From positions 1 to 64,000 of the forward strand of contig NZ_GG657906.1 of NCBI RefSeq assembly GCF_000156355.1: DNA of 64,000 nucleotides, given 5' to 3'. Position numbers and translations under genes: made by a program. This document shows, piece by piece, positions 9,920-39,906 of this stretch. Origin of the DNA: Methylophaga thiooxydans DMS010 (GTDB taxonomy: Bacteria; Pseudomonadota; Gammaproteobacteria; Nitrosococcales; Methylophagaceae). Below the pieces are notes generated by a model. That model was not told the origin of the DNA. It did no database searches and saw only the letters and a program-made list of their open reading frames with translations. Position 1 is the stretch's first letter; the number at the start of each line of letters is the position of its first letter.

Positions 9920-10585
9920 ATGTTCGTTATTAACGATCTGAAGTTCCACTATCCGGATGATGACAACGATCTGCTTAACATCCCTCACTGGCAGGTGGCT
10001 GCCGGTGAATCTGTCTTTCTTTCAGCTCCCTCCGGGACAGGTAAATCGACGCTGGTGAACTTATTGGCCGGCATCATTACACCGCAGCACGGAACCATTC
10101 GCGTGATGGATAGCGTGATTAATCACTTATCCTCGCGCCAGCGAGACGCATTTCGTGCGCGTCATATTGGTATGGTGTTTCAGCAGTTTAATTTAATTCC
10201 TTACCTGAGTGTGATGGATAATATCCGTCTTGCCAGTCGATTCTCCGATATGAGCAGGGCTGAAGCGGACGAGCGAAGTCACACGCTGTTGCAAATGCTC
10301 GGTCTCACCACATTAGATGCGACACGCCAGGCAGAGCAGCTCAGTGTGGGACAGCAGCAACGGGTGGCGATTGTCCGAGCACTGGTCAATGAGCCGGCAC
10401 TGTTGTTAGTGGATGAACCAACTTCTGCACTGGATGCGGCGCATCGGGATCAGTTTATTGGTTTATTGATGCAGCAACTAGACACTTCCCGCACTAGTTT
10501 GGTTTTTGTGAGTCATGACAGCAGTTTGAAACACCATTTCAGCCGTCATGTGCATATAGGACAGCTCCAACATGATGCTGATTAA
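9920..10585 (+). CDS. ABC transporter ATP-binding protein, LolD/MacB type
   Basis: A 221-residue ATPase with Walker A SAPSGTGKST (35-44), Q-loop FQQFN (about 87-91), signature LSVGQQQRV (141-149) and Walker B LLLVDEPTSALD (161-172). This is the LolD/MacB/FtsE subfamily that pairs with FtsX-type permeases, and such a permease follows with a 14-bp overlap. Together with the ZrgA-like and DUF3299 proteins the pair resembles the ZrgBC part of the Vibrio zinc-regulated transporter. It acts on the cytoplasmic face of the inner membrane. Control probably comes from the candidate operator at 9870-9885. Confidence 0.85.
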   Translation: MFVINDLKFHYPDDDNDLLNIPHWQVAAGESVFLSAPSGTGKSTLVNLLAGIITPQHGTIRVMDSVINHLSSRQRDAFRARHIGMVFQQFNLIPYLSVMDNIRLASRFSDMSRAEADERSHTLLQMLGLTTLDATRQAEQLSVGQQQRVAIVRALVNEPALLLVDEPTSALDAAHRDQFIGLLMQQLDTSRTSLVFVSHDSSLKHHFSRHVHIGQLQHDAD

Positions 10586-30026: not shown

Positions 30027-30066
30027 TTAAAAGAAAAAACCCCTCATGGGAATGAACCATGAGGGG
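30027..30066 (-). terminator. Strong terminator for the minus-strand kinase operon
   Basis: CCCCTCATGG (30040-30049) pairs perfectly over 10 bp with CCATGAGGGG (30057-30066) around a 7-base loop. On the minus strand the stem is followed by TTTTTTCTTTT, a good U-tract, while the plus side has none. It therefore ends transcripts coming from the kinase gene at 30185-31579. Confidence 0.8.
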
Positions 30067-30126: not shown

Positions 30127-30180
30127 TAACAGCTAGCTTAAGCTAAGCTTTAGCTGCTAGTTACCCCTCGTTTTAGGGGG
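30127..30180. repeat. Imperfect inverted repeat and CCCCT/AGGGG hairpin in a convergent gap
   Basis: TAAC at 30127-30130 and GTTA at 30160-30163 bound an AGCT-rich imperfect inverted repeat (13 of 18 positions pair). CCCCT at 30164-30168 pairs with AGGGG at 30175-30179. Both lie between the AstE-like stop and the kinase stop. They may slow or process transcripts from either side. No gene is seen in this gap. Confidence 0.4.
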
Positions 30181-30184
30181 GGGC

Positions 30185-31579
30185 TCAATCCGGGATACTG
30201 AGAATAATCCGGCATCCGCCAGACGCAGGTTGTTCGATATTCAAGCTTCCGCCGAGTTGTTTAGCTCGCGTTTTCATATTGCTGATGCCATGGCCTGGTG
30301 ATTTGAGACTATCCGGGGTGAACTGACCGTTATCCTGAATCAAAATTTGAAAGCCATGCGGTGATTGCTTGGCGCTGAATTCGATGGAGCTTGCCTTGGC
30401 ATGCTTTAAAATATTGGTAAATGCTTCTTGCAGGATACGTAGCAAATGTAGGCCAGTTTGAGGCTTGATATTGAGCTGCTCAGCTTTGTCATCCACATGC
30501 CAGTCCAATTCAATATCAAGTTGTTCCAGTTTTCTGCTGGTTCGATATTTAAAGTCAGCCAGTAACGACGATAAAACACTGTTTTGCATACTTAAAGAAT
30601 GAATGATCAAGCGTAAATCGTTAAGGCATTCGGTTAAAACAGTATATATATTCTGCTTGATTTGTGAGTCTTGCTCTCGCTCTAATAAGGCGAGAGAGGC
30701 CACCAACTGGCCCCCAATACCATCATGCATATCACGCATGATGCGCTCTCTTTCTTCGAGTATAGCCTTACTACGTTCAAGGTCGATGGTTTCCTGGCGT
30801 TGTTGTGCCAAGGCGGTATTTTTTTCAGATAACTGGCTAACGGTATAGTTTAAAGATGCAGTTGCAGCACTGACTTTTTCTTGTAGATCCGCATCGTTTT
30901 GCTGTAATGAGTCGATCATTTTATTAAACGTGCGTTGAAATTTGAGTAGCTCGCCTGAGCCATTTTCATGCGAACGAACAGAAAAATCTCTTTGCTCTAA
31001 ACGGTGAGCAGAAGAAATGAGGGAACTGATTGCATTAGTTAATTTACGGCTAAACAGGTAAACGAATAAACAACCCAGTAGTAGGGCAATAAAAGCAATC
31101 CCCAGCACTTTTGTGTAGGCCTGAAAGCGTTGTGCTTCTGCTGAATTGTTGTTGAGGCCGATTTCAATAATACCTAAATCGTCAGCGGTGTTAATTGGCG
31201 GCGTCGCTCTAAAGTCATCCAGGTTTGGTGCTTGCGTACGCACCGGGAAATTAAACTCACGTAAATCTCCTTTTTGTCTAAATGCTTTTTCATGAATCAG
31301 TAATTGACCGGTTGAGTCAATGAAGCGTATGTAGGCTAAGTCATGGGTTTTAATCATTAAATCGGCGACGTTTTTTAATGCATCCACATCGCCTGTGTAG
31401 AGGGGAAACTCAGACATGATAGATGCTTGATTGGCAATACTTTCACCTCGCTTAACCACCTCTGATTCAATGTTATCGAGCACTTCAAACAAAATAAATA
31501 AGGTAATGACTGCAATCGTTAGCAGTAACGGCATAACAGTGATGAGTAGTAACTGAGTTTTGAGTTTCGTCGCGAACAT
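30185..31579 (-). CDS. NarX/UhpB-type sensor histidine kinase
   Basis: A 464-residue membrane kinase. The N-terminal helix (10-32) and a second at about 159-176 enclose a roughly 125-residue periplasmic sensor. HAMP (about 176-230), a coiled coil (230-275) and a HisKA_3 dimerisation domain follow, with His285 in MRDMHDGIGGQL, then an ATPase domain (EAFTNILKHAKA, DNGQF, GHGISNM). Such kinases phosphorylate LuxR-type regulators, and one is encoded first in this operon (34550-35197). The start overlaps the ABC_sub_bind stop by one base (TGATG). The signal is probably delivered by that periplasmic protein. Confidence 0.88.
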   Translation of the reverse strand: MFATKLKTQLLLITVMPLLLTIAVITLFILFEVLDNIESEVVKRGESIANQASIMSEFPLYTGDVDALKNVADLMIKTHDLAYIRFIDSTGQLLIHEKAFRQKGDLREFNFPVRTQAPNLDDFRATPPINTADDLGIIEIGLNNNSAEAQRFQAYTKVLGIAFIALLLGCLFVYLFSRKLTNAISSLISSAHRLEQRDFSVRSHENGSGELLKFQRTFNKMIDSLQQNDADLQEKVSAATASLNYTVSQLSEKNTALAQQRQETIDLERSKAILEERERIMRDMHDGIGGQLVASLALLEREQDSQIKQNIYTVLTECLNDLRLIIHSLSMQNSVLSSLLADFKYRTSRKLEQLDIELDWHVDDKAEQLNIKPQTGLHLLRILQEAFTNILKHAKASSIEFSAKQSPHGFQILIQDNGQFTPDSLKSPGHGISNMKTRAKQLGGSLNIEQPASGGCRIILSIPD

Positions 31580-32463
31580 CAGTTTTTATTACCTTCAGGT
31601 AAAATTTCTGGAATTGTAATTTTTAATGCGCGTGCGATATTTTTATTAAACTCGATTTCAAAGTTGGGGTAAACAATACCGTGTTCAGGAAGCTTTCCTT
31701 GCTGCTCCCACTGCATGATTAATTGCACTGTTTTGTCTGTCGTCTGAGGCAAGGTAGCGTAAACCGATGCTAATGCACCTGCTTTGAGAAAACGTTTGGA
31801 ATAACCAATAACAGGGACATTGAATTTATAACTTTGATACAGCATCCATTTTGCGTTTTCGCCCGACCAGATGTGCTCGTCTCTTACAGCCAACAATGCA
31901 CCCGCATTAAATAAGGCTTTATCAATGACTTTGGCTGGTTGACTGTTTTCATCCACTAACAGCACCTCAAATGGTATGCCGGACTGGTTATTGAGCTTAC
32001 TGATTTCATCCCGCAAAAGTTGGTTTTCTTCTGATATGGCCACGATCACTTTGTCACGATAACGTCCTGCGACAATGGTGCTGGCTAGATCAAATAGTCG
32101 CTGTACCGGTTGATCAATTACCACTGCAGCCCACTCAGAATCAGTGTGGGGAGGAATTTGTGTCCTATCAATGAAGCTATATAAATGCGAGTTTCGCTCG
32201 AATGAAGAATGTATGTTGAGGGCGGCTTGTTCACCTAACGGCACAATTAAATCTTTAGGGTGAAGCACTTTTTTATGCAAAGACTGAGTTGAGCTGATGT
32301 GAATTGGTTTACTAAAACCCTGCGTTTTGAGCTCAGCCTGAACAGCTTTAGCAGCTTGCTGATAGAGTTCATTGTTGTCAGACAAGACGATATACACTGA
32401 GCCAGTGTCTGCCTGGCTCAGTGTGGCAACTAGCAGCAAAAAGAGTGCTAGAAAATGTCTCAC
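31579..32463 (-). CDS. Periplasmic ABC_sub_bind-family protein
   Basis: A 294-residue exported protein with a signal peptide (MRHFLALFLLLVATLSQA) and a two-lobed periplasmic-binding fold resembling the ABC_sub_bind family (YLxDN-like start SVYIVLSDNNELYQQAAKAV, and LIVPLGEQAALN). No permease or ATPase gene is nearby, so it is unlikely to feed an ABC importer here. Tight linkage to the kinase (1-bp overlap) suggests it binds a ligand and presents it to the sensor. The final residues (EILPEGNKN) follow a typical helix. The ligand is unknown. Confidence 0.75.
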   Translation of the reverse strand: MRHFLALFLLLVATLSQADTGSVYIVLSDNNELYQQAAKAVQAELKTQGFSKPIHISSTQSLHKKVLHPKDLIVPLGEQAALNIHSSFERNSHLYSFIDRTQIPPHTDSEWAAVVIDQPVQRLFDLASTIVAGRYRDKVIVAISEENQLLRDEISKLNNQSGIPFEVLLVDENSQPAKVIDKALFNAGALLAVRDEHIWSGENAKWMLYQSYKFNVPVIGYSKRFLKAGALASVYATLPQTTDKTVQLIMQWEQQGKLPEHGIVYPNFEIEFNKNIARALKITIPEILPEGNKN

Positions 32464-32467
32464 TTAA

Positions 32468-34540
32468 TTAGAAGTTAAGGTAAGTGACACTGAGGTAATA
32501 GCGGGGCTCAAAGGCGAGAAGATAGTTATCCTCATCATCCTGAATGAACTCGCTGTATTTTTCGTTCCCAATATTTTGCCCTCCTAGCTTAAATATCAGT
32601 TCATTTTTACCTGTTAACGGCACGCGTTTAATCACCGAGGCATCTAGCCTGGTGTATGAGTCTACTTTGTCACCCCGATCAAACCACTCCATGGTGCCCA
32701 CGTGATAGAGGCCGAGATTAAATTGCCAAGTATCAACTGCCTTAGCGACAAGAAAGCCGTAACTTTTTCTGGGTGCCGCACTATGTAATGATTCCACATC
32801 CGTTGCCGGTTTGGGTGGCGCTTCATTGATTTCCTTGATGTAGGTTCCTGTTTCATGGCCGCGGTTGAAGTGAAAGCGAATAAAGCTATTTTCTTCTGGA
32901 CGGAACATAATAGAGCCTTCAAACCCATACATTTGTGATTGGGTGACATTGCCCAAGCGTGTTAGGTCGCCACTTAAATCGGTCACACCAGGATCTTCAT
33001 CATTATAGAAATCGATTACATTGTCGTACTCTTCTTTGTAGGCTCGTAATTCCCAGCTCAGTGGAAAATTCTGCATTTTTCCTACATAACCAATATCAAA
33101 AGCTTTCACCCGTTCAGCTTCAATCCCTGCGTCACCTTTAAATACAGCATCTAGGGGAAAGCCTGTTTCTGAGTAGATAGTTAAATCAAGGTTTTCTTCC
33201 AACAGGGAGGGAATACGATAGGCTTTTGAGTATCCGACTCGAAGTGATTGTGTCTCTTTGATATGCCAGGTCAGACTGAATCGTGGTGAAAAATGGGGCT
33301 CATCAGTTCGGTTCACTTCATAAAAGCCACCCGCATTGGCAGTGAATTTATTACCCAAAGGGATTTGAACATTACTAAATGCACGGAAACTGGTATTGGA
33401 AACGGTGCCTTTGTCAGGAAAAAAAGCTTCACTTTCCATCGAGTCATAGCGTCCACCAAAACCGACCACATACTGAAGTCCGCTATCTAAAATTTCGTTG
33501 TATTGTAATTCCAGATCACTACGGTGACTTTTGTAAGTTCGCTCACCAGCTTCAACCGTTTGGTTTGGATCACCAAGAAATCCGGGCACAGAAGCTGGAT
33601 TAGGTAACTCAAGCAGTTGCCAAAGAGGATAAGATTCAACCATATCATCTTCATCACGAAAGTTATGGTAGAAGTTGAGTTTTACTTCTTGGCTATCGCT
33701 GATGATGTGATCCCAGCGTACATGTGCTGAGATCGCATTCGTGTCACGTTTCCGATCATAAAAGCTTGTTGGATTACCGGGATCTATGGGGGGCATGCCT
33801 GCGTCACCGCTGGTGGCGCTGAAATGACTGAAAAAACTGTTACGCGCATCATGACTGTAGCGCCCTGTGAGCGAGACATCGTGTAGGTCACGACTGTCGA
33901 GGTAATTATCGAAACCATCGTTATCACGGGTCGCAGCACTAAAGCGATAGTTCAGATCTTTGTATTCACCACTGTGTCTCAATAACAACCGACGCTCTCC
34001 TTCATTGCCATATCGCGCACCGACATGCCATTTATCATCTAATTCGGGTGCTTTCGTGATGACATTGATAGCGCCAGCAAAAGAATTGGCACCATATGCT
34101 GAGGCGGCAGGGCCACGAACAACCTCGATCCGATCAATATCTTCAATTTGAATACCTAGCGTATTCCAGTCGATCGCAGATAACGCTGAGGTGTAGGTAG
34201 AGCGGCCATCGATTAATAGTTGCATTCGATTCGGGTATTCCCAGCCATCACCATGATTAATCACGGCGAAGGTGTTGCCGTCGGCATGGGCAACCTGAAA
34301 ACCGGGGACTAAACGAAAAATATCAGCAATTTCGATAAAACCGCTGGCTTGAATCATCGCGCTATCAATAACCGTTACTGCTGAAGGGGAAGATAACACT
34401 GACTGATTAAGACGACTGGCACTGGTAATAACGGGTAAATCACTGAAAAAGTCATCGGCCAAATCTTCTTCAGCAATCAGGTTAGTAGATAAGAGACTTG
34501 ATGACACAAGAAGGGTAAGGGGGACGGTGTTTATTTTCAT
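32468..34540 (-). CDS. TonB-dependent outer-membrane receptor
   Basis: A complete 690-residue receptor: signal peptide (MKINTVPLTLLVSSSLLSTNLIAEE), a TonB-box-like DLPVITSASRL near residue 34, plug (about 45-165, with RIEVVRGPAASAYGANSFAG), 22-strand barrel with ETQSLRVGYSKAYRIPSLLE, and the C-terminal aromatic YYLSVTYLNF. The colicin-I/vitamin-B12-like plug does not define the ligand. It lies 9 bp after the response-regulator gene and 4 bp before the periplasmic binding protein, so uptake and signalling appear coupled. No B12, thiamine or other riboswitch is recognisable upstream. Confidence 0.88.
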   Translation of the reverse strand: MKINTVPLTLLVSSSLLSTNLIAEEDLADDFFSDLPVITSASRLNQSVLSSPSAVTVIDSAMIQASGFIEIADIFRLVPGFQVAHADGNTFAVINHGDGWEYPNRMQLLIDGRSTYTSALSAIDWNTLGIQIEDIDRIEVVRGPAASAYGANSFAGAINVITKAPELDDKWHVGARYGNEGERRLLLRHSGEYKDLNYRFSAATRDNDGFDNYLDSRDLHDVSLTGRYSHDARNSFFSHFSATSGDAGMPPIDPGNPTSFYDRKRDTNAISAHVRWDHIISDSQEVKLNFYHNFRDEDDMVESYPLWQLLELPNPASVPGFLGDPNQTVEAGERTYKSHRSDLELQYNEILDSGLQYVVGFGGRYDSMESEAFFPDKGTVSNTSFRAFSNVQIPLGNKFTANAGGFYEVNRTDEPHFSPRFSLTWHIKETQSLRVGYSKAYRIPSLLEENLDLTIYSETGFPLDAVFKGDAGIEAERVKAFDIGYVGKMQNFPLSWELRAYKEEYDNVIDFYNDEDPGVTDLSGDLTRLGNVTQSQMYGFEGSIMFRPEENSFIRFHFNRGHETGTYIKEINEAPPKPATDVESLHSAAPRKSYGFLVAKAVDTWQFNLGLYHVGTMEWFDRGDKVDSYTRLDASVIKRVPLTGKNELIFKLGGQNIGNEKYSEFIQDDEDNYLLAFEPRYYLSVTYLNF

Positions 34541-34549
34541 GCTCGACCT

Positions 34550-35197
34550 TTAGATAATGCCGAGTAGCGTCGCTTCGCTGACTGCTTGCATTTTATTCTT
34601 CACTGAGAGTTTCTTGTAAACGTTGGAGACGTATTCCCTTACAGTGTAATAAGAAAGATCAAGCATCTTAGCTATCTCTTTAGAGGTATATCCTTTGCTG
34701 ACCAGCAGCAATACCTCTTTCTCGCGCGGACTTAACACATCTGGCGAGTTTTTCTGTTCCGGTTTAGCTGGCTCTGCGATGGAGAGTTCATTCAATAGAT
34801 ATCGGGCGATGCTGGGGCTGATCGGTGCGCCCCCATCAACCATCTGGCTGATTGCTTCGTTGATATCCATGAAATCATCATCTTTGAGTAAGTAACCGGA
34901 TGCACCTGCTTTGAGCGCTTCAATCACATGATAACCATCACCAAAAACGGTAATCACAATGGCTAGCTGAGTTTTTATGGCAGGTAAGTTGATAAGCTTA
35001 ATGAGATCAACACCACTGCCGTCAGGAAGATCCAGATCGGTCAGTAAAATATCAGGGGGCGTATTGCGTATAAAGGCTAAGCCTTCAGTATAAGTACCTA
35101 CGGAGCCAACCAGTTCGAACAGACCACCATTTATAACGGCATCCTCCAAGCGTTTGCGCGTGGCTTCGGAGTCTTCAACAATTAAAATGGTCTTCAT
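34550..35197 (-). CDS. LuxR/NarL-family response regulator
   Basis: A 215-residue two-component regulator: receiver domain with Asp54 as phosphoacceptor (LLTDLDLPDG), acidic pocket EDS at 8-10, conserved Lys in YLLKDDD, then a linker and a LuxR-type helix-turn-helix (LSPREKEVLLLVSKGYTSKEI, split here as two adjoining helices; YTVREYVSNVYKKL recognition). It is first in a four-gene operon with a receptor, a periplasmic binding protein and a NarX-type kinase. The palindrome at 35351-35370 upstream is a candidate binding site for autoregulation. Confidence 0.88.
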   Translation of the reverse strand: MKTILIVEDSEATRKRLEDAVINGGLFELVGSVGTYTEGLAFIRNTPPDILLTDLDLPDGSGVDLIKLINLPAIKTQLAIVITVFGDGYHVIEALKAGASGYLLKDDDFMDINEAISQMVDGGAPISPSIARYLLNELSIAEPAKPEQKNSPDVLSPREKEVLLLVSKGYTSKEIAKMLDLSYYTVREYVSNVYKKLSVKNKMQAVSEATLLGII

Positions 35198-35559
35198 ATC
35201 GGCTTGCTACACAGTCCCTGTCAGATATTGAAAATGTTTGTAACCGCTGTCCTGATAGACGGCTTACCACAGCATCTCAACGCTCTTTGTAGTAGAGATA
35301 GCCTGATTTTGTCAGACAATCCTAGCTTATCAGCACAGAAGAATAGCATTATCCCCTATGTGAGGGGGTAGATGACCACGAAAAAAGGTAATCTGATGAA
35401 CACATTTTGGGTGAAGATTTGGTGACAAAAGCGTGAGCAATGCATCACTTGTCACGGTAATGTAGAGTTACTTTTGTAATAGTTGTAATTATTCTTTGCA
35501 TTTTCAGACTAAAGTAGTGAAAATCGCGGTTTTTTAATCATCTTAACGGACATCAGCCC
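35198..35559. other. Divergent intergenic region between response regulator and speA
   Basis: These 362 bases carry no credible gene. They must hold promoters for the minus-strand regulator operon and for the plus-strand polyamine operon. The notable sequence is the CCCC...GGGG palindrome at 35351-35370. The stretch from about 35450 to 35540 is AT-rich and a likely speA promoter zone, but I cannot pick -35/-10 boxes with confidence. Confidence 0.6.
35351..35370. promoter_or_regulatory. Candidate regulator-binding palindrome
   Basis: ATCCCCTATGTGAGGGGGTA has CCCCT and AGGGGG arms five bases apart. It sits about 155 bp upstream of the response-regulator start and about 190 bp before speA. NarL/LuxR-type regulators bind short dyads of this general sort. 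A similar CCCCT-N6-AGGGGG lies at 30164-30180, beyond the operon's far end. Function is inferred. Confidence 0.4.
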
Positions 35560-37506
35560 ATGCAAAATCACCTTTCCTCTTCGTTGGAAAATGAGCTGGA
35601 TTTGAGCACAGAATGGAGCGCCGAACATAGTGCTCGACTGTATGGCGTGCGTGACTGGGGCAGTGATTACTTTGATGTGTCGGCAGAGGGTAATGCGGTC
35701 GTCTCATTGCAGTTTGGCGAAAAAACCATTCAAGTTCCCATTATTGATATCGTCAATGGAATGAAAGAGCGGGGCTTGGATATGCCCGCTGTACTTCGCA
35801 TTGAAAACTTGTTGGACCAGCGTATTACCCAGCTTAATGAGGCTTTCGCGAAAGCAATTAATGAAGCGGGTTATAACAATCACTACCGCGGTGTGTTTCC
35901 GATTAAGGTGAACCAGCAGTGCCATGTTATCGAAGAAATTGCTGATTATGGCAGTCGCTATCATCATGGGCTGGAAGCGGGAAGTAAAGCAGAGCTCATC
36001 ATTGCTTTGACCCAATTAAAAGACCCAGAAAGTCTGATTATTTGTAATGGTTATAAAGATGAGGAGTTCATCGAGTTAGGTTTATATGCACGTCAAATGG
36101 GCATTAATTGCTTTTTTGTGCTCGAAACCGCGATGGAACTCGATATTATTCTAGAACGCAGCCGCGCGCTGGGTATCGATCCGCTAATTGGCGTACGCAT
36201 CCGCTTGGCTTCAATGGTTGAAGGTCACTGGAATGAAGACAGCGGTGACCGGTCTATCTTTGGCTTGTCCACTAATGCCTTGTTAGGGGTTATTGAAAAA
36301 CTGAAACAGGCTGATATGTTGCACTGTCTGCAATTGCTGCACAGTCACCTGGGTTCGCAGATCCCGAACATCCGTAATATACGTAGCGGAGTAATGGAAG
36401 CCTGTCGCTTTTATGCTGGCCTGATTGAAGAAGGAGCCCCGATGGGCTACATCGACATAGGTGGCGGTCTAGCGGTAGATTATGAAGGCGCACGCAGTAA
36501 CAGTACTCACAGTATGAATTATGGCCTGGATGAATACTGCTACAGCATTGTGGAAACATTACAAGAAAGCTTAGAACCGTTGGGAATTGCTCATCCTGTG
36601 ATCATTTCCGAATCAGGACGTGCTTTAGTGGCGTACTCCTCAATGCTGTTGTTCAATATTTTGGAAACGCGCGAGCATAAGCCCGGACCATTGCCGGACT
36701 CTGCACCGGATGGCAGTCATGATCTGATTGTGAATCTGTTCAGCGTATTAGATTACGTCAATGTCGATAACCTGCAAGAGTGTTACAACGACGCATTGTA
36801 TTACCGCGATGAAATACGTGAGCTTTTCCACCATGGTCAGGCGAGCCTCAGAGAACGCGCTTTGGCGGAGAATGTCACACTGGCAGTATTGGAAAAAATT
36901 TCTAATCTGTTGCCGCAGGTAAGACGCGTATCTCAGGAACTGGAAGCATTGCCGGAACTGATGTCAGATATTTACTATGGCAACTTCAGTTTGTTTCAGT
37001 CTCTGCCTGATATTTGGGCGATTGATCAGTTATTCCCCATCATGCCCATCCATCGCTTAAATGAAGCGCCTGTGCGTGATGGTGTGCTGGCGGATATGAC
37101 CTGTGATTGTGATGGCAAGATTGATAATTTTATTTCGCCAAGCGGTGTTACAAAGACACTGCCATTACATCCTCTGAAAGAGGGTGAAGAGTATTACATT
37201 AGTGTGTTTCTGGTGGGTGCCTATCAGGAAACCTTAGGTGATTTGCATAATCTGTTTGGCGATACCAATGTCGTCAGTGTGCATGTAAACGAAGATGGCA
37301 GTTTTGATTTCCGCCGCGAGTTTCATGGTGACAGCATTGCCGATGTACTCAGTTACGTGGAATATGATCCGAAACTTATCCAAGAACAGTTCCGTCGTAT
37401 TGCCGAGCAAGCAGTTCGTGATGGCAAAATTTCAGTACCAATGCGTCAACAAATGCTGCGTGCATTCCGCGAGAGCATGAATGGTTACACCTTCTTCGAA
37501 CGTTAA
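35560..37506 (+). CDS. speA: Biosynthetic arginine decarboxylase
   Basis: A 648-residue PLP enzyme of fold type III converting arginine to agmatine. The PLP lysine is in YRGVFPIKVNQQ (about residue 115). The glycine-rich phosphate site YIDIGGGLAVDYEG (about 300), the ISESGRALVA segment and the C-terminal MTCDCDGKIDNF catalytic cysteine region are all present. The length and the N-terminus (EWSAEHSARLYGVRDWG) match the E. coli-type enzyme. It heads a run with carboxyspermidine genes and agmatinase, giving a full arginine-to-spermidine route. The start is the ATG at 35560, preceded by ACGGA. Confidence 0.95.
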   Translation: MQNHLSSSLENELDLSTEWSAEHSARLYGVRDWGSDYFDVSAEGNAVVSLQFGEKTIQVPIIDIVNGMKERGLDMPAVLRIENLLDQRITQLNEAFAKAINEAGYNNHYRGVFPIKVNQQCHVIEEIADYGSRYHHGLEAGSKAELIIALTQLKDPESLIICNGYKDEEFIELGLYARQMGINCFFVLETAMELDIILERSRALGIDPLIGVRIRLASMVEGHWNEDSGDRSIFGLSTNALLGVIEKLKQADMLHCLQLLHSHLGSQIPNIRNIRSGVMEACRFYAGLIEEGAPMGYIDIGGGLAVDYEGARSNSTHSMNYGLDEYCYSIVETLQESLEPLGIAHPVIISESGRALVAYSSMLLFNILETREHKPGPLPDSAPDGSHDLIVNLFSVLDYVNVDNLQECYNDALYYRDEIRELFHHGQASLRERALAENVTLAVLEKISNLLPQVRRVSQELEALPELMSDIYYGNFSLFQSLPDIWAIDQLFPIMPIHRLNEAPVRDGVLADMTCDCDGKIDNFISPSGVTKTLPLHPLKEGEEYYISVFLVGAYQETLGDLHNLFGDTNVVSVHVNEDGSFDFRREFHGDSIADVLSYVEYDPKLIQEQFRRIAEQAVRDGKISVPMRQQMLRAFRESMNGYTFFER

Positions 37507-37534
37507 ATAAAAGCCGAGTTATAGGAATTTAGCT

Positions 37535-38734
37535 ATGTCAAAAGTCGTGATTATTGGGGCCGGCGGTGTCGGCGGTGTGGTCACTCACAAGTGTGCACAA
37601 CTGCCAGAAGTCTTTTCTGAAATCGTGCTGGCCAGTCGAACCGAGAAAAAATGCAAAGCCATTGCTGCGCAATTGGAACGACCCATAAAAACCGCGCAAG
37701 TCGATGCTGATAACGTGGCTGAGCTAACCACATTGCTGGAGCAGGAAAAGCCGGATTTGGTGATTAATGTCGCCCTGCCATATCAAGATCTGACGATTAT
37801 GGATGCCTGTCTGGCAGCCGGTGTTGACTACCTTGATACAGCAAACTATGAACCATTGGATACCGCTAAATTCGAATACAAATGGCAATGGGCGTATCAG
37901 GATAAATTCAAACAAGCGGGTCTGACGGCGTTATTAGGTAGCGGTTTTGACCCTGGCGCAACCAATGTGTTTACCGCTTATATTGCCAAGCACTATTTCG
38001 ATGAAATCCATGAATTGGATATTATCGACGTCAATGGAGGTGATCATGGTTATCCGTTTGCGACCAATTTCAATCCGGAAATTAATATTCGTGAAGTCAC
38101 AGCGGAATGCCGTCATTGGGAAAATGACAACTTTGTCACGACACCAGCGATGTCGAAAAAAGCCAGCTTTACTTGTCCTGAACAGGTGGGTACCTACAGT
38201 ATTTATCGTATGTACCATGAAGAGTTGGAGTCATTGACTAAGCATTTTCCAACGTTAAAACGTGCCCAGTTCTGGATGAGTTTTGGTGAAAGCTACTTGA
38301 AGCATTTGGAAGTACTAGGCAATGTCGGTATGACCGGAATTGAACCCATTGAATTTCAGGGTCAGCAAATTGTGCCGATTCAATTTTTGAAAGCCTTATT
38401 GCCCGATCCTTCGACGCTGGGGCCACGTACCAAAGGCAAGACCTGTATCGGGGTTGTGGTGAAAGGAATTAAAGAAGGTAAGGAAAAAATCGTTTACCTC
38501 TACAACATTAAAGATCACCAGGACTGCTACCAAGAAGTACAGTCGCAAGCGATTTCTTACACCACCGGTGTGCCGGCGATGATTGGTGCCAAAATGATGC
38601 TGGAAGGCAAGTGGAAACAACCCGGGGTTTGGAATATTGAACAGTTTGATCCGGATCCGTTTATGGAAGATATGAATAAATACGGTCTGCCATGGAAAGT
38701 GGTGGAACTGGATAGCTTTGATCTGGACGGTTAA
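37535..38734 (+). CDS. Carboxynorspermidine/carboxyspermidine dehydrogenase (saccharopine dehydrogenase family)
   Basis: A 399-residue NAD(P)H-dependent enzyme with the Rossmann start VVIIGAGGVGGVVTHKCAQ and family motifs ALLGSGFDPGATNVF and KGKTCIGVVVKGIKEG. In Vibrio and many other bacteria it condenses aspartate semialdehyde with putrescine or diaminopropane to carboxyspermidine or carboxynorspermidine. Here agmatinase supplies putrescine, so carboxyspermidine is the likely product. The next gene, 5 bp downstream, is the matching decarboxylase. TAGGAA lies before the ATG. Saccharopine dehydrogenase proper is less likely given this context. Confidence 0.9.
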   Translation: MSKVVIIGAGGVGGVVTHKCAQLPEVFSEIVLASRTEKKCKAIAAQLERPIKTAQVDADNVAELTTLLEQEKPDLVINVALPYQDLTIMDACLAAGVDYLDTANYEPLDTAKFEYKWQWAYQDKFKQAGLTALLGSGFDPGATNVFTAYIAKHYFDEIHELDIIDVNGGDHGYPFATNFNPEINIREVTAECRHWENDNFVTTPAMSKKASFTCPEQVGTYSIYRMYHEELESLTKHFPTLKRAQFWMSFGESYLKHLEVLGNVGMTGIEPIEFQGQQIVPIQFLKALLPDPSTLGPRTKGKTCIGVVVKGIKEGKEKIVYLYNIKDHQDCYQEVQSQAISYTTGVPAMIGAKMMLEGKWKQPGVWNIEQFDPDPFMEDMNKYGLPWKVVELDSFDLDG

Positions 38735-38739
38735 GTTCG

Positions 38740-39906
38740 ATGCAATTTACTGATTTTGGCAAGTTGGATTTATCCCGATTGCCATCACCTTGTTTTGTGG
38801 TCGATGAAGTCGCTGTAGAGCGTAACTTACGTATTCTCAGCGACGTGGCAGAGGCGAGTGGTGCCAAAATTCTGGGTGCGTTGAAAGCGTTTTCAATGTG
38901 GTCATTTGGCAACATGACGCATCAATACCTCAGTGGAACTTGTGCCAGTGGTTTGCATGAAGCCAAACTCGGGCATGAAGAGTATGGCGGTGAAGTGCAT
39001 GTATTTGCCGCCGCATTCAGTCAGGCTGATATTGATGAGTTACTGACCTTTGCACATCACATCGTTTTTAACTCCTGTGGTCAATGGTTACGTTTTCGTG
39101 AGCAATGTCTGGCTGCTAAAAAACAGCGTCCAGAATTACAGTTTGGGCTCCGAATCAATCCGGAACACTCCGAAGGCACTGTACCGATTTATGATCCCTG
39201 TGCGCCGGGATCACGATTAGGCATTACTTTATCGCAGTTAGATGAAAGCGTACTTGATGGCATTACTGGACTGCATTTCCATACTTTGTGTGAGCAGGGC
39301 TTTGAACCACTTTCCAGAACTGTAGCGGCTGTTGAGAAAAACTTCGGTCATTTGCTTAGTCAGATGGATTGGGTCAATTTTGGTGGTGGTCACCATATTA
39401 CGGCTGATGGTTACAACATCAACGGGCTGGTGGAAATGGTGCAGGTTTTCAGACAGCGCCATAACGTTGAGGTATATATGGAACCCGGCGAAGCAATGGC
39501 CATTGGTACCGGTGTTTTAAGTTGTGAAGTGTTGGATATCACATGGAATCAGATCAATCAGGCCATTCTGGACACCTCGGCAACCTGTCATATGCCTGAC
39601 ACCTTAGAAATGCCGTATCGGCCAGATATCACTGGTGCAGCAGAAGCTGAAAAGCTATCTCATACCTATCGTCTGGGCGGTTTAACCTGTCTGGCTGGTG
39701 ATGTGATTGGTGATTACAGCTTTGCTAAACCACTCGAAATCGGCCAGCGGCTGGTTTTCGAAGATATGGGCCATTACACCATGGTCAAAACAACCACGTT
39801 TAATGGCACGAAATTACCTGCGATTGCAATTTGGAATTCGGAAACTGACGCGCTGTGCGTGGTCAAAGAGTTCGGCTATGCTGACTTTAAACACAGACTG
39901 TCATGA
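38740..39906 (+). CDS. nspC: Carboxynorspermidine/carboxyspermidine decarboxylase
   Basis: A 388-residue fold-III PLP decarboxylase. The PLP lysine is in GALKAFSMWS (near residue 49), and the family motifs FGLRINPEHSEG, GLHFHTLCEQ, VNFGGGHHIT and MEPGEAM follow. It removes the carboxyl group from carboxyspermidine to give spermidine, completing the pathway begun by the upstream dehydrogenase. It is separated from that gene by 5 bp and overlaps speB by ATGA, so translation is likely coupled across the operon. Confidence 0.93.
   Translation: MQFTDFGKLDLSRLPSPCFVVDEVAVERNLRILSDVAEASGAKILGALKAFSMWSFGNMTHQYLSGTCASGLHEAKLGHEEYGGEVHVFAAAFSQADIDELLTFAHHIVFNSCGQWLRFREQCLAAKKQRPELQFGLRINPEHSEGTVPIYDPCAPGSRLGITLSQLDESVLDGITGLHFHTLCEQGFEPLSRTVAAVEKNFGHLLSQMDWVNFGGGHHITADGYNINGLVEMVQVFRQRHNVEVYMEPGEAMAIGTGVLSCEVLDITWNQINQAILDTSATCHMPDTLEMPYRPDITGAAEAEKLSHTYRLGGLTCLAGDVIGDYSFAKPLEIGQRLVFEDMGHYTMVKTTTFNGTKLPAIAIWNSETDALCVVKEFGYADFKHRLS

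Follow-up and report, generated by a model that had tools for sequence, protein, structure and literature searches.

A likely periplasmic sensing relay in Methylophaga thiooxydans: a TonB receptor and an ABC_sub_bind protein in one operon with a BarA-type Cache sensor

In the TorT-TorS, LuxP-LuxQ and XylFII-LytS systems a Venus-flytrap protein without a transporter is found beside a sensor kinase. In YfiBNR the small periplasmic protein YfiR controls the sCache-HAMP sensor YfiN, and in FecA-FecR-FecI a TonB receptor is tied to gene control. The accessible text on the hybrid kinase BarA/GacS describes the GacS ligand(s) as unknown (PMC7695008), with no consensus as late as 2026 (PMC13390462). 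Here we analyze a four-gene operon within a stretch of 64,000 nucleotides (the window; contig NZ_GG657906.1, positions 1 to 64,000) of Methylophaga thiooxydans DMS010. It encodes a response regulator, a TonB-dependent receptor, a periplasmic binding protein of the ABC_sub_bind family and a sensor kinase. Sequence comparison makes it likely that the operon is a periplasmic sensing relay, in which the binding protein, supplied through the TonB receptor, provides a BarA-type Cache sensor with its periplasmic input.

The four open reading frames (ORFs) are all on the minus strand (35197-30185, Table 1), in the order regulator, receptor, binding protein and kinase, with intergenic gaps of 9, 4 and -1 bp. 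Genes and spacing agree with a preliminary description of the locus. Its domain assignments were likewise recovered by Pfam (GerE and Response_reg, Plug and TonB barrel, ABC_sub_bind, HisKA_3/HATPase_c). The position of the regulator as first gene and the terminator hairpin were absent from that description.

The operon shares features with each of the known systems. As in TorT-TorS, LuxP-LuxQ and XylFII-LytS, a protein of matching flytrap fold stands without a transporter beside a kinase, and by analogy the working principle is probably the same. However, the window system has a member of the ABC_sub_bind family, a single Cache sensor and an added TonB receptor, and is known here from adjacency, co-occurrence and distance correlation. 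TrpX-like ABC_sub_bind transporters share fold and sequence family with the binding protein, but the core family defined below lacks a permease or ATPase partner. The kinase has the sCache_4-HAMP sensor half of BarA/GacS (NF008318), the type of kinase found joined with most relatives of the module; the window kinase differs in its NarX-type HisKA_3 core, in having neither receiver nor Hpt domain and in the regulator gene lying in the same operon. Compared with YfiBNR, the partner is of a ligand-binding fold, the output is a kinase, and Pfam found no YfiR-like (DUF4154) match among the four operon proteins. The receptor, unlike FecA, has no STN signalling domain in the Pfam scan (its plug match begins at residue 49), for which reason a FecA-type trans-envelope route was dropped. 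No sigma or anti-sigma factor gene is present within the operon, as had been stated before.

The binding protein scores 22.4 bits against ABC_sub_bind (PF04392), just below the Pfam gathering cut-off of 25.9, and is the sole match to this family in the host genome. A sequence search of solved structures returned no relative. An AlphaFold (AF2) model built with 39 relatives (pLDDT, predicted local distance difference test, 92.1) has the two-lobe fold of TrpX-like proteins. Foldseek placed 3lft (with L-Trp) first (E 1.4e-13). Ranks 1-4 were TrpX-like (3lft, 3lkv, 6hnj), with CD0873 among the TrpX-like leaders, and after these the 50 best matches include TorT (with TorS), LuxP (with LuxQ) and XylFII (with LytS). 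By these matches the protein is a genuine flytrap, with a fold that serves transport in some systems and kinase sensing in others. By Pfam, neither permease nor ATPase is encoded in the operon. A transporter role, considered first, was dropped since no permease adjoins the binding protein in the core family.

A single-sequence search found the binding protein in 14 of 95 relatives and in 76 of 369 genomes of the class, a profile search in 101 of these 369. Neighbourhoods were examined at 75 loci (binding protein at least 100 bits on a custom profile; loci and genomes carry L and G numbers) and at 80 named loci, kept from 129 relatives in a scan of named GTDB genomes. The core family comprises the 79 loci with at least 125 bits; one locus at 105 bits was excluded and the rest fell below 90 bits. 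Loci with less than 2.5 kb upstream or 1 kb downstream, or with the binding protein lost by the ORF caller, were omitted from the counts, which refer to 65 and 61 loci. No binding-protein ORF was returned for 9 of the 80 named loci, presumably because of the simple ORF caller, and others were truncated by contig ends. The two sets overlap (L065 and L178, for example, score identically) and are therefore not independent. Neighbouring kinases were labelled with a profile built from kinases linked to the binding protein (threshold 35 bits), which therefore catches HAMP-sensor proteins of several outputs.

A sensor-type signalling gene lies immediately 3' of the binding protein at 60 of 65 and 58 of 61 loci, and no more than three genes away at 62 of 65 in the first set. 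The gap between both genes is at most 20 bp in 58/60 and 58/58 cases (median -4 bp). A TonB receptor is found within three genes at 52/65 and 53/61 loci, and the pair of binding protein and sensor is kept without a receptor at 12/65 and 8/61 loci (20 in the two sets), as well as at L047 in the genus. The binding protein and the sensor are thus the constant pair while the receptor is sometimes missing, which points to the binding protein as direct input and to the receptor as its supplier. The preliminary description had proposed the binding protein as signal input of the kinase and a conserved-neighbourhood analysis as a check. This proposal is well supported by the adjacency, by the missing permease and by a pairing that outlasts both receptor loss and a change of output. 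Named carriers include Sedimenticola, Candidatus Thiodiazotropha, Undibacterium, Curvibacter, Azoarcus and a Methylophilaceae genome. In the family of the host the binding protein occurs in 9 of 57 genomes. Six of these nine loci read regulator, receptor, binding protein, kinase; L051 is rearranged, L046 is cut by a contig end and L047 is without receptor. At L047 (G013, 10284-10500) the receptor is gone and 217 bp separate regulator and binding protein, with regulator, binding protein and kinase retained.

Which type of kinase receives this input was analyzed with Pfam and NCBIfam models. The window kinase matches sCache_4 with 26.5 bits (cut-off 22.1) and HAMP with 24.3 bits, just below the cut-off of 25; its HisKA_3 match is weak and HATPase_c is present. 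Scores against NarQ (102.1 of 553 bits) and NarX (85.9 of 578 bits) do not reach the curated values, and the likeness is confined to the catalytic half. The BarA/GacS model is matched with 57.1 of 890 bits over the stretch 94-266 only, so that the protein is no full-length hybrid of this kind; its sCache_4-HAMP sensor half, in contrast, is of the BarA/GacS type by Pfam and by the sensor profile test given below. The earlier assignment as NarX-type kinase thus holds for the core, and the BarA/GacS-type sensor half goes beyond it. In an AF2 model of residues 1-250 (pLDDT 84.9), Foldseek matches of the Cache region were CdgS9/LapD, WalK, CitA and DcuS.

BarA/GacS-like hybrid kinases make up most of the signalling proteins adjacent to the binding protein, and many of them are encoded at the barA locus. 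When ten neighbour kinases were scanned, BarA was the best NCBIfam match of nine (432-796 bits) and the tenth was a GGDEF-EAL protein. One of the genes cysM, rlmD, relA, pdxJ or acpS is near 32 of 75 loci, and these markers also flank many BarA genes without binding protein. The top-scoring BarA match (L094) adjoins rlmD and relA, as does barA of E. coli. Among the 369 genomes, 45 of 76 full-length BarA-model matches (E at most 1e-140, model start at most 12) are accompanied by the binding protein on the same strand at no more than 4 kb, as are two of the four matches above NCBIfam's own cut-off (G381, G282). No such binding protein adjoins at the BarA loci examined as lacking it. A full-length BarA is missing from the host genome, where the sensor part of the model matches the window kinase and some short segments around HAMP. 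No UvrY/GacA regulator above the NCBIfam cut-off was found there either (best 221 of 280 bits), and the operon's regulator scores 103.9 bits against the NarL model, which demands 250. The window operon probably represents one re-wired version of an input module that is widespread among BarA-type sensors.

The sensor that has the binding protein as partner occurs with at least six kinds of output. The sCache_4-HAMP part is fused to HisKA-HATPase-REC-Hpt (L065), HisKA-HATPase-REC (L227), GGDEF (L208), GGDEF-EAL (L184) or PAS-GGDEF-EAL (L073, L074, L122), and in the window and its family it sits on a HisKA_3-type core with a separate gene for a NarL-type regulator. The Undibacterium partners (L208, L221, L233, L252) have 442-444 residues; the one scanned, at L208, has the YfiN-like layout sCache_4-HAMP-GGDEF, and the binding protein there occupies the place of YfiR. 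A more distant branch of the binding protein (L142 and L145, 72-94 bits) adjoins GGDEF-EAL proteins without sCache_4 match.

In a held-out comparison, a profile of BarA sensors linked to the binding protein competed with a profile of BarA sensors lacking it, training members and anything more than 60% identical to them being omitted. The linked BarA group was defined by a BarA-profile score above 450 and more than 820 residues; a sensor length filter of 120-240 was applied and, by the counts, none fell outside. The linked profile won for 78/78 linked BarA sensors, 4/4 PAS-GGDEF-EAL proteins, 40/40 other outputs and 8/9 window-type sensors, and for only 11 of 29 BarA sensors without binding protein. 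By this measure sensors linked to the binding protein resemble each other regardless of output and form a type of their own. Column conservation places the difference largely in a stretch ASEYGxFSGN and in the aspartate of D-[DE]-[FY]. This aspartate is present in 64/78 linked BarA sensors, 4/4 PAS-GGDEF-EAL, 33/40 other and 9/9 window-type proteins versus 4/29 sensors without binding protein. The strict motif E[YF]xx[FY]xG[ND], found in 37/78 and 1/29, is not clean enough as a stand-alone marker, and the aspartate separates better. Two members of the set without binding protein stand out: L104, which carries the complete first motif, has perhaps lost the binding protein, and L116 resembles linked sensors by score without having the strict motif. 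In the AF2 model the signature stretch is located at the end of the long first helix, which we predict to be the membrane-distal tip of the Cache domain.

Further support for the relay comes from distances between the proteins. Across 58 non-redundant BarA-type loci, binding-protein distances still track those of the sensor once the kinase core is accounted for (partial r 0.46, 0/199 permutations), compared to 0.22 for the receiver-domain control. Receptor distances track the binding protein with a partial r of 0.69 (48 BarA-type loci with receptor). Of the 24 genomes of the genus, 5 have the binding protein, and the full sensor occurs in these five and in no others.

In the relay as we picture it, the TonB receptor would carry the ligand across the outer membrane, where it would be bound by the binding protein, a soluble Venus-flytrap member of ABC_sub_bind that would have lost its transporter. 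In its liganded (or empty) state the binding protein would dock to the kinase in the periplasm, on the Cache domain and probably at its membrane-distal helix tip. HAMP would then switch the NarX-type core, leading to phosphorylation of the NarL-type regulator, which probably controls its own operon via the CCCC-N8-GGGG dyad. Receptor, binding protein and sCache_4-HAMP sensor, as the input half, would form a transferable module, joined mostly to BarA/GacS-type hybrid kinases in those Gammaproteobacteria having it and elsewhere to cyclic di-GMP enzymes. Gene content, the conserved pairing, the common sensor type, the fold and the conservation of the dyad are results of the computation, and contact of binding protein and kinase, direction of control, ligand import by the receptor and the target of the regulator are the parts of this scheme that we infer.

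Several observations weigh against such a relay. E. coli BarA is reported, in the accessible text of PMC8639471, to bind acetate or formate directly in its Cache pocket. Furthermore, 31 of 76 BarA matches are without binding protein; BarA has therefore no general need of it. The preference of window-type sensors for the linked profile is weak (mean 5.6 bits) and slightly reversed in one of the nine (L045). Both the held-out comparison and the distance correlation retain the relatedness of species, so that shared ancestry is not fully removed from them. Finally, no sensor gene was found near the binding protein at 3/65 (L083, L128, L168) and 3/61 loci (L189, L246, L257). At L168 the ORF caller missed the sensor, since by coordinates the BarA match of G208 begins 15 bp after the binding protein.

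The alternative that survives best, although we hold it to be unlikely, regards the binding protein as a YfiR-like sensor regulator that needs no imported ligand. It would signal the state of the envelope, the redox state or the occupancy of the receptor, which would be an outer-membrane anchor or occupancy reporter and no importer. The window kinase is indeed matched, although weakly, by the NCBIfam model for kinases near YfiR-like proteins (30.3 bits, cut-off 194); its N-terminal half is matched by the YfiN model as well. The Undibacterium partner at L208 is itself YfiN-like, and at L152 a receptor, a YfiR-like protein and a BarA-like hybrid are arranged alike, the YfiR-like protein replacing the binding protein. 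A ligand-binding Venus-flytrap fold, nearest to amino-acid-binding TrpX-like proteins, would however be odd for a ligand-free regulator. The arrangement at L152 together with the YfiR-neighbour kinase model suggests that this class of sensors is commonly governed by separate periplasmic proteins. L152 (4696-12287) comprises a TonB receptor, a YfiR-like protein (DUF4154, 123.8 bits) and a BarA-like hybrid of 1664 residues, and constitutes a parallel system.

Receptor and binding protein could also be a scavenging pair for periplasmic storage or hand-over, with the kinase sensing something else and being merely co-transcribed. Co-transcription alone would explain the gene order, and the receptor is of the ligand-importing type, but the binding protein and the sensor stay paired at the 20 loci without receptor and under replacement of the output, and the sensors linked to it are of their own type; we judge this explanation to be very improbable. 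Least credible of all, with hardly any probability left to it, is a binding protein that serves a permease encoded elsewhere and has sensing as a side role: permease and ATPase genes adjoin only the distant relatives L144 and L146 (66-72 bits versus at least 125 in the core), and a permease pairing, named beforehand as what would speak against the sensing role, was sought in the relatives and found within four genes at 0/65 and 0/61 core loci (TrpXYZ-kind permease or ATPase; orphan permeases elsewhere were not searched for).

Returning to the relay, the principle of binding protein and kinase is already known, and what would be new is the use of this family as input of a BarA-type sensor. The accessible text of PMC7695008, PMC8639471 and PMC13390462 does not present a binding protein or TonB receptor as input of BarA/GacS. 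In that of PMC7695008 neither TonB nor substrate-binding is mentioned, and the only instance of periplasmic binding protein is within the title of a reference; in that of PMC13390462 the hits of an attachment screen include one ABC substrate-binding gene and one TonB receptor, at loci apart from gacS. A search by titles and abstract beginnings, with most subscription journals outside its range, found no report of the pairing. The conserved pairing with a BarA-type sensor suggests a widespread, so far undescribed sensing of an imported substance. With the binding protein in BarA/GacS operons of dozens of genomes, the question of the GacS signal becomes, for these lineages, a ligand screen on a soluble protein. 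It would also be a second route, free of sigma factors, linking outer-membrane uptake to gene control, and one and the same input module would serve at least six types of output. BarA orthologues are divided into types in the accessible text of PMC8639471. A more far-reaching version, which we offer tentatively and rate somewhat short of even, would make TonB receptor and ABC_sub_bind protein the principal BarA/GacS input in Gammaproteobacteria keeping the module. ASEYGxFSGN and D-[DE]-[FY] would then mark a type dependent on the binding protein beside the acetate type and the GacS type, the GacS signal there would be a molecule taken up from outside and read by a periplasmic protein that can be removed, and the window operon would be the re-wired copy with a simple NarX/NarL output.

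Table 1. Positions of the operon genes and associated features in the window
Feature	Position	Strand	Basis
NarL/LuxR-type response regulator, operon gene 1	35197-34550	-	Pfam Response_reg 58.8 bits, GerE 65.6 bits
TonB-dependent receptor, Plug and barrel, no STN	34540-32468	-	Pfam
Periplasmic binding protein, TrpX-like ABC_sub_bind fold, GTG start	32463-31579	-	Pfam, AF2, Foldseek
Sensor kinase, transmembrane - sCache_4 - transmembrane - HAMP - HisKA_3/HATPase_c	31579-30185	-	Pfam, NCBIfam, AF2
Cache sensor region, about residues 30-155, common to BarA-type sensors	31492-31115	-	sCache_4, profile test, Foldseek
Signature SEFPLYTGD, residues 56-64, counterpart of ASEYGxFSGN	31414-31388	-	Column conservation
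Upstream dyad CCCC-N8-GGGG, then ATAATG, TATCCCCTATGTGAGGGGGTA at 35350-35370 with 0 mismatches	35347-35370	-	Conserved at 4/4 congeneric loci
Second CCCCT/AGGGGG dyad, just past the kinase stop	30164-30180		Dyad search
Probable intrinsic terminator, 10-pair stem and T run	30040-30066	-	Hairpin search; counterparts in congeners

Two dyads had been pointed out at the ends of the operon, and they differ in conservation. The upstream one, for which the chance mean is 0.26 at up to 2 mismatches, belongs to the block CCCC-N8-GGGG-x-TAATG-x-TAT-x-CTT...CTGATAA-x-CTA. All four congeneric loci whose upstream DNA could be read share this block without change, in surroundings that vary. The dyad is absent 5' of the regulator at 4/4 sister-genus loci. 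Such a footprint probably marks an operator or the promoter region of the operon. The idea of a regulator acting at the dyads, raised in the preliminary description, is half supported by these results. From the 3' dyad only the AGGGGTAAC half is common to L044 and L045, for which reason it was rejected as operator; it is probably not functional as such. Further dyads, for which a genome scan had been proposed, did not appear, as the upstream dyad is unique: a pattern scan for CCCC-N8-GGGGATAATG gave one exact copy and one with one mismatch. The looser CCCC-N7-GGGG had 16 matches versus 31 for a reversed control and is no commoner than this control, so that no dyad-defined regulon is claimed.

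The best NCBIfam match of the receptor is the TOL_0244 family (NF053590), with 184.8 bits against a cut-off of 645. A plasmid or viral origin of the operon was rejected, as a plasmid search gave no match and no relative was found among viral contigs. The flanking genes are housekeeping genes, with RimK and an AstE-like gene on one side and polyamine-type genes on the other. The latter are divergent plus-strand genes (35560-39906) for an arginine decarboxylase, a saccharopine-dehydrogenase-like and an Orn/DAP/Arg decarboxylase-like protein (Pfam), and probably serve polyamine synthesis. A polyamine as ligand of the binding protein is a weak lead, because sister-genus loci have different neighbours. 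A hairpin with a T run is also located 3' of the kinase at the four congeneric loci L044-L047, and the window hairpin, longer than the two dyads, probably ends the operon as a terminator.

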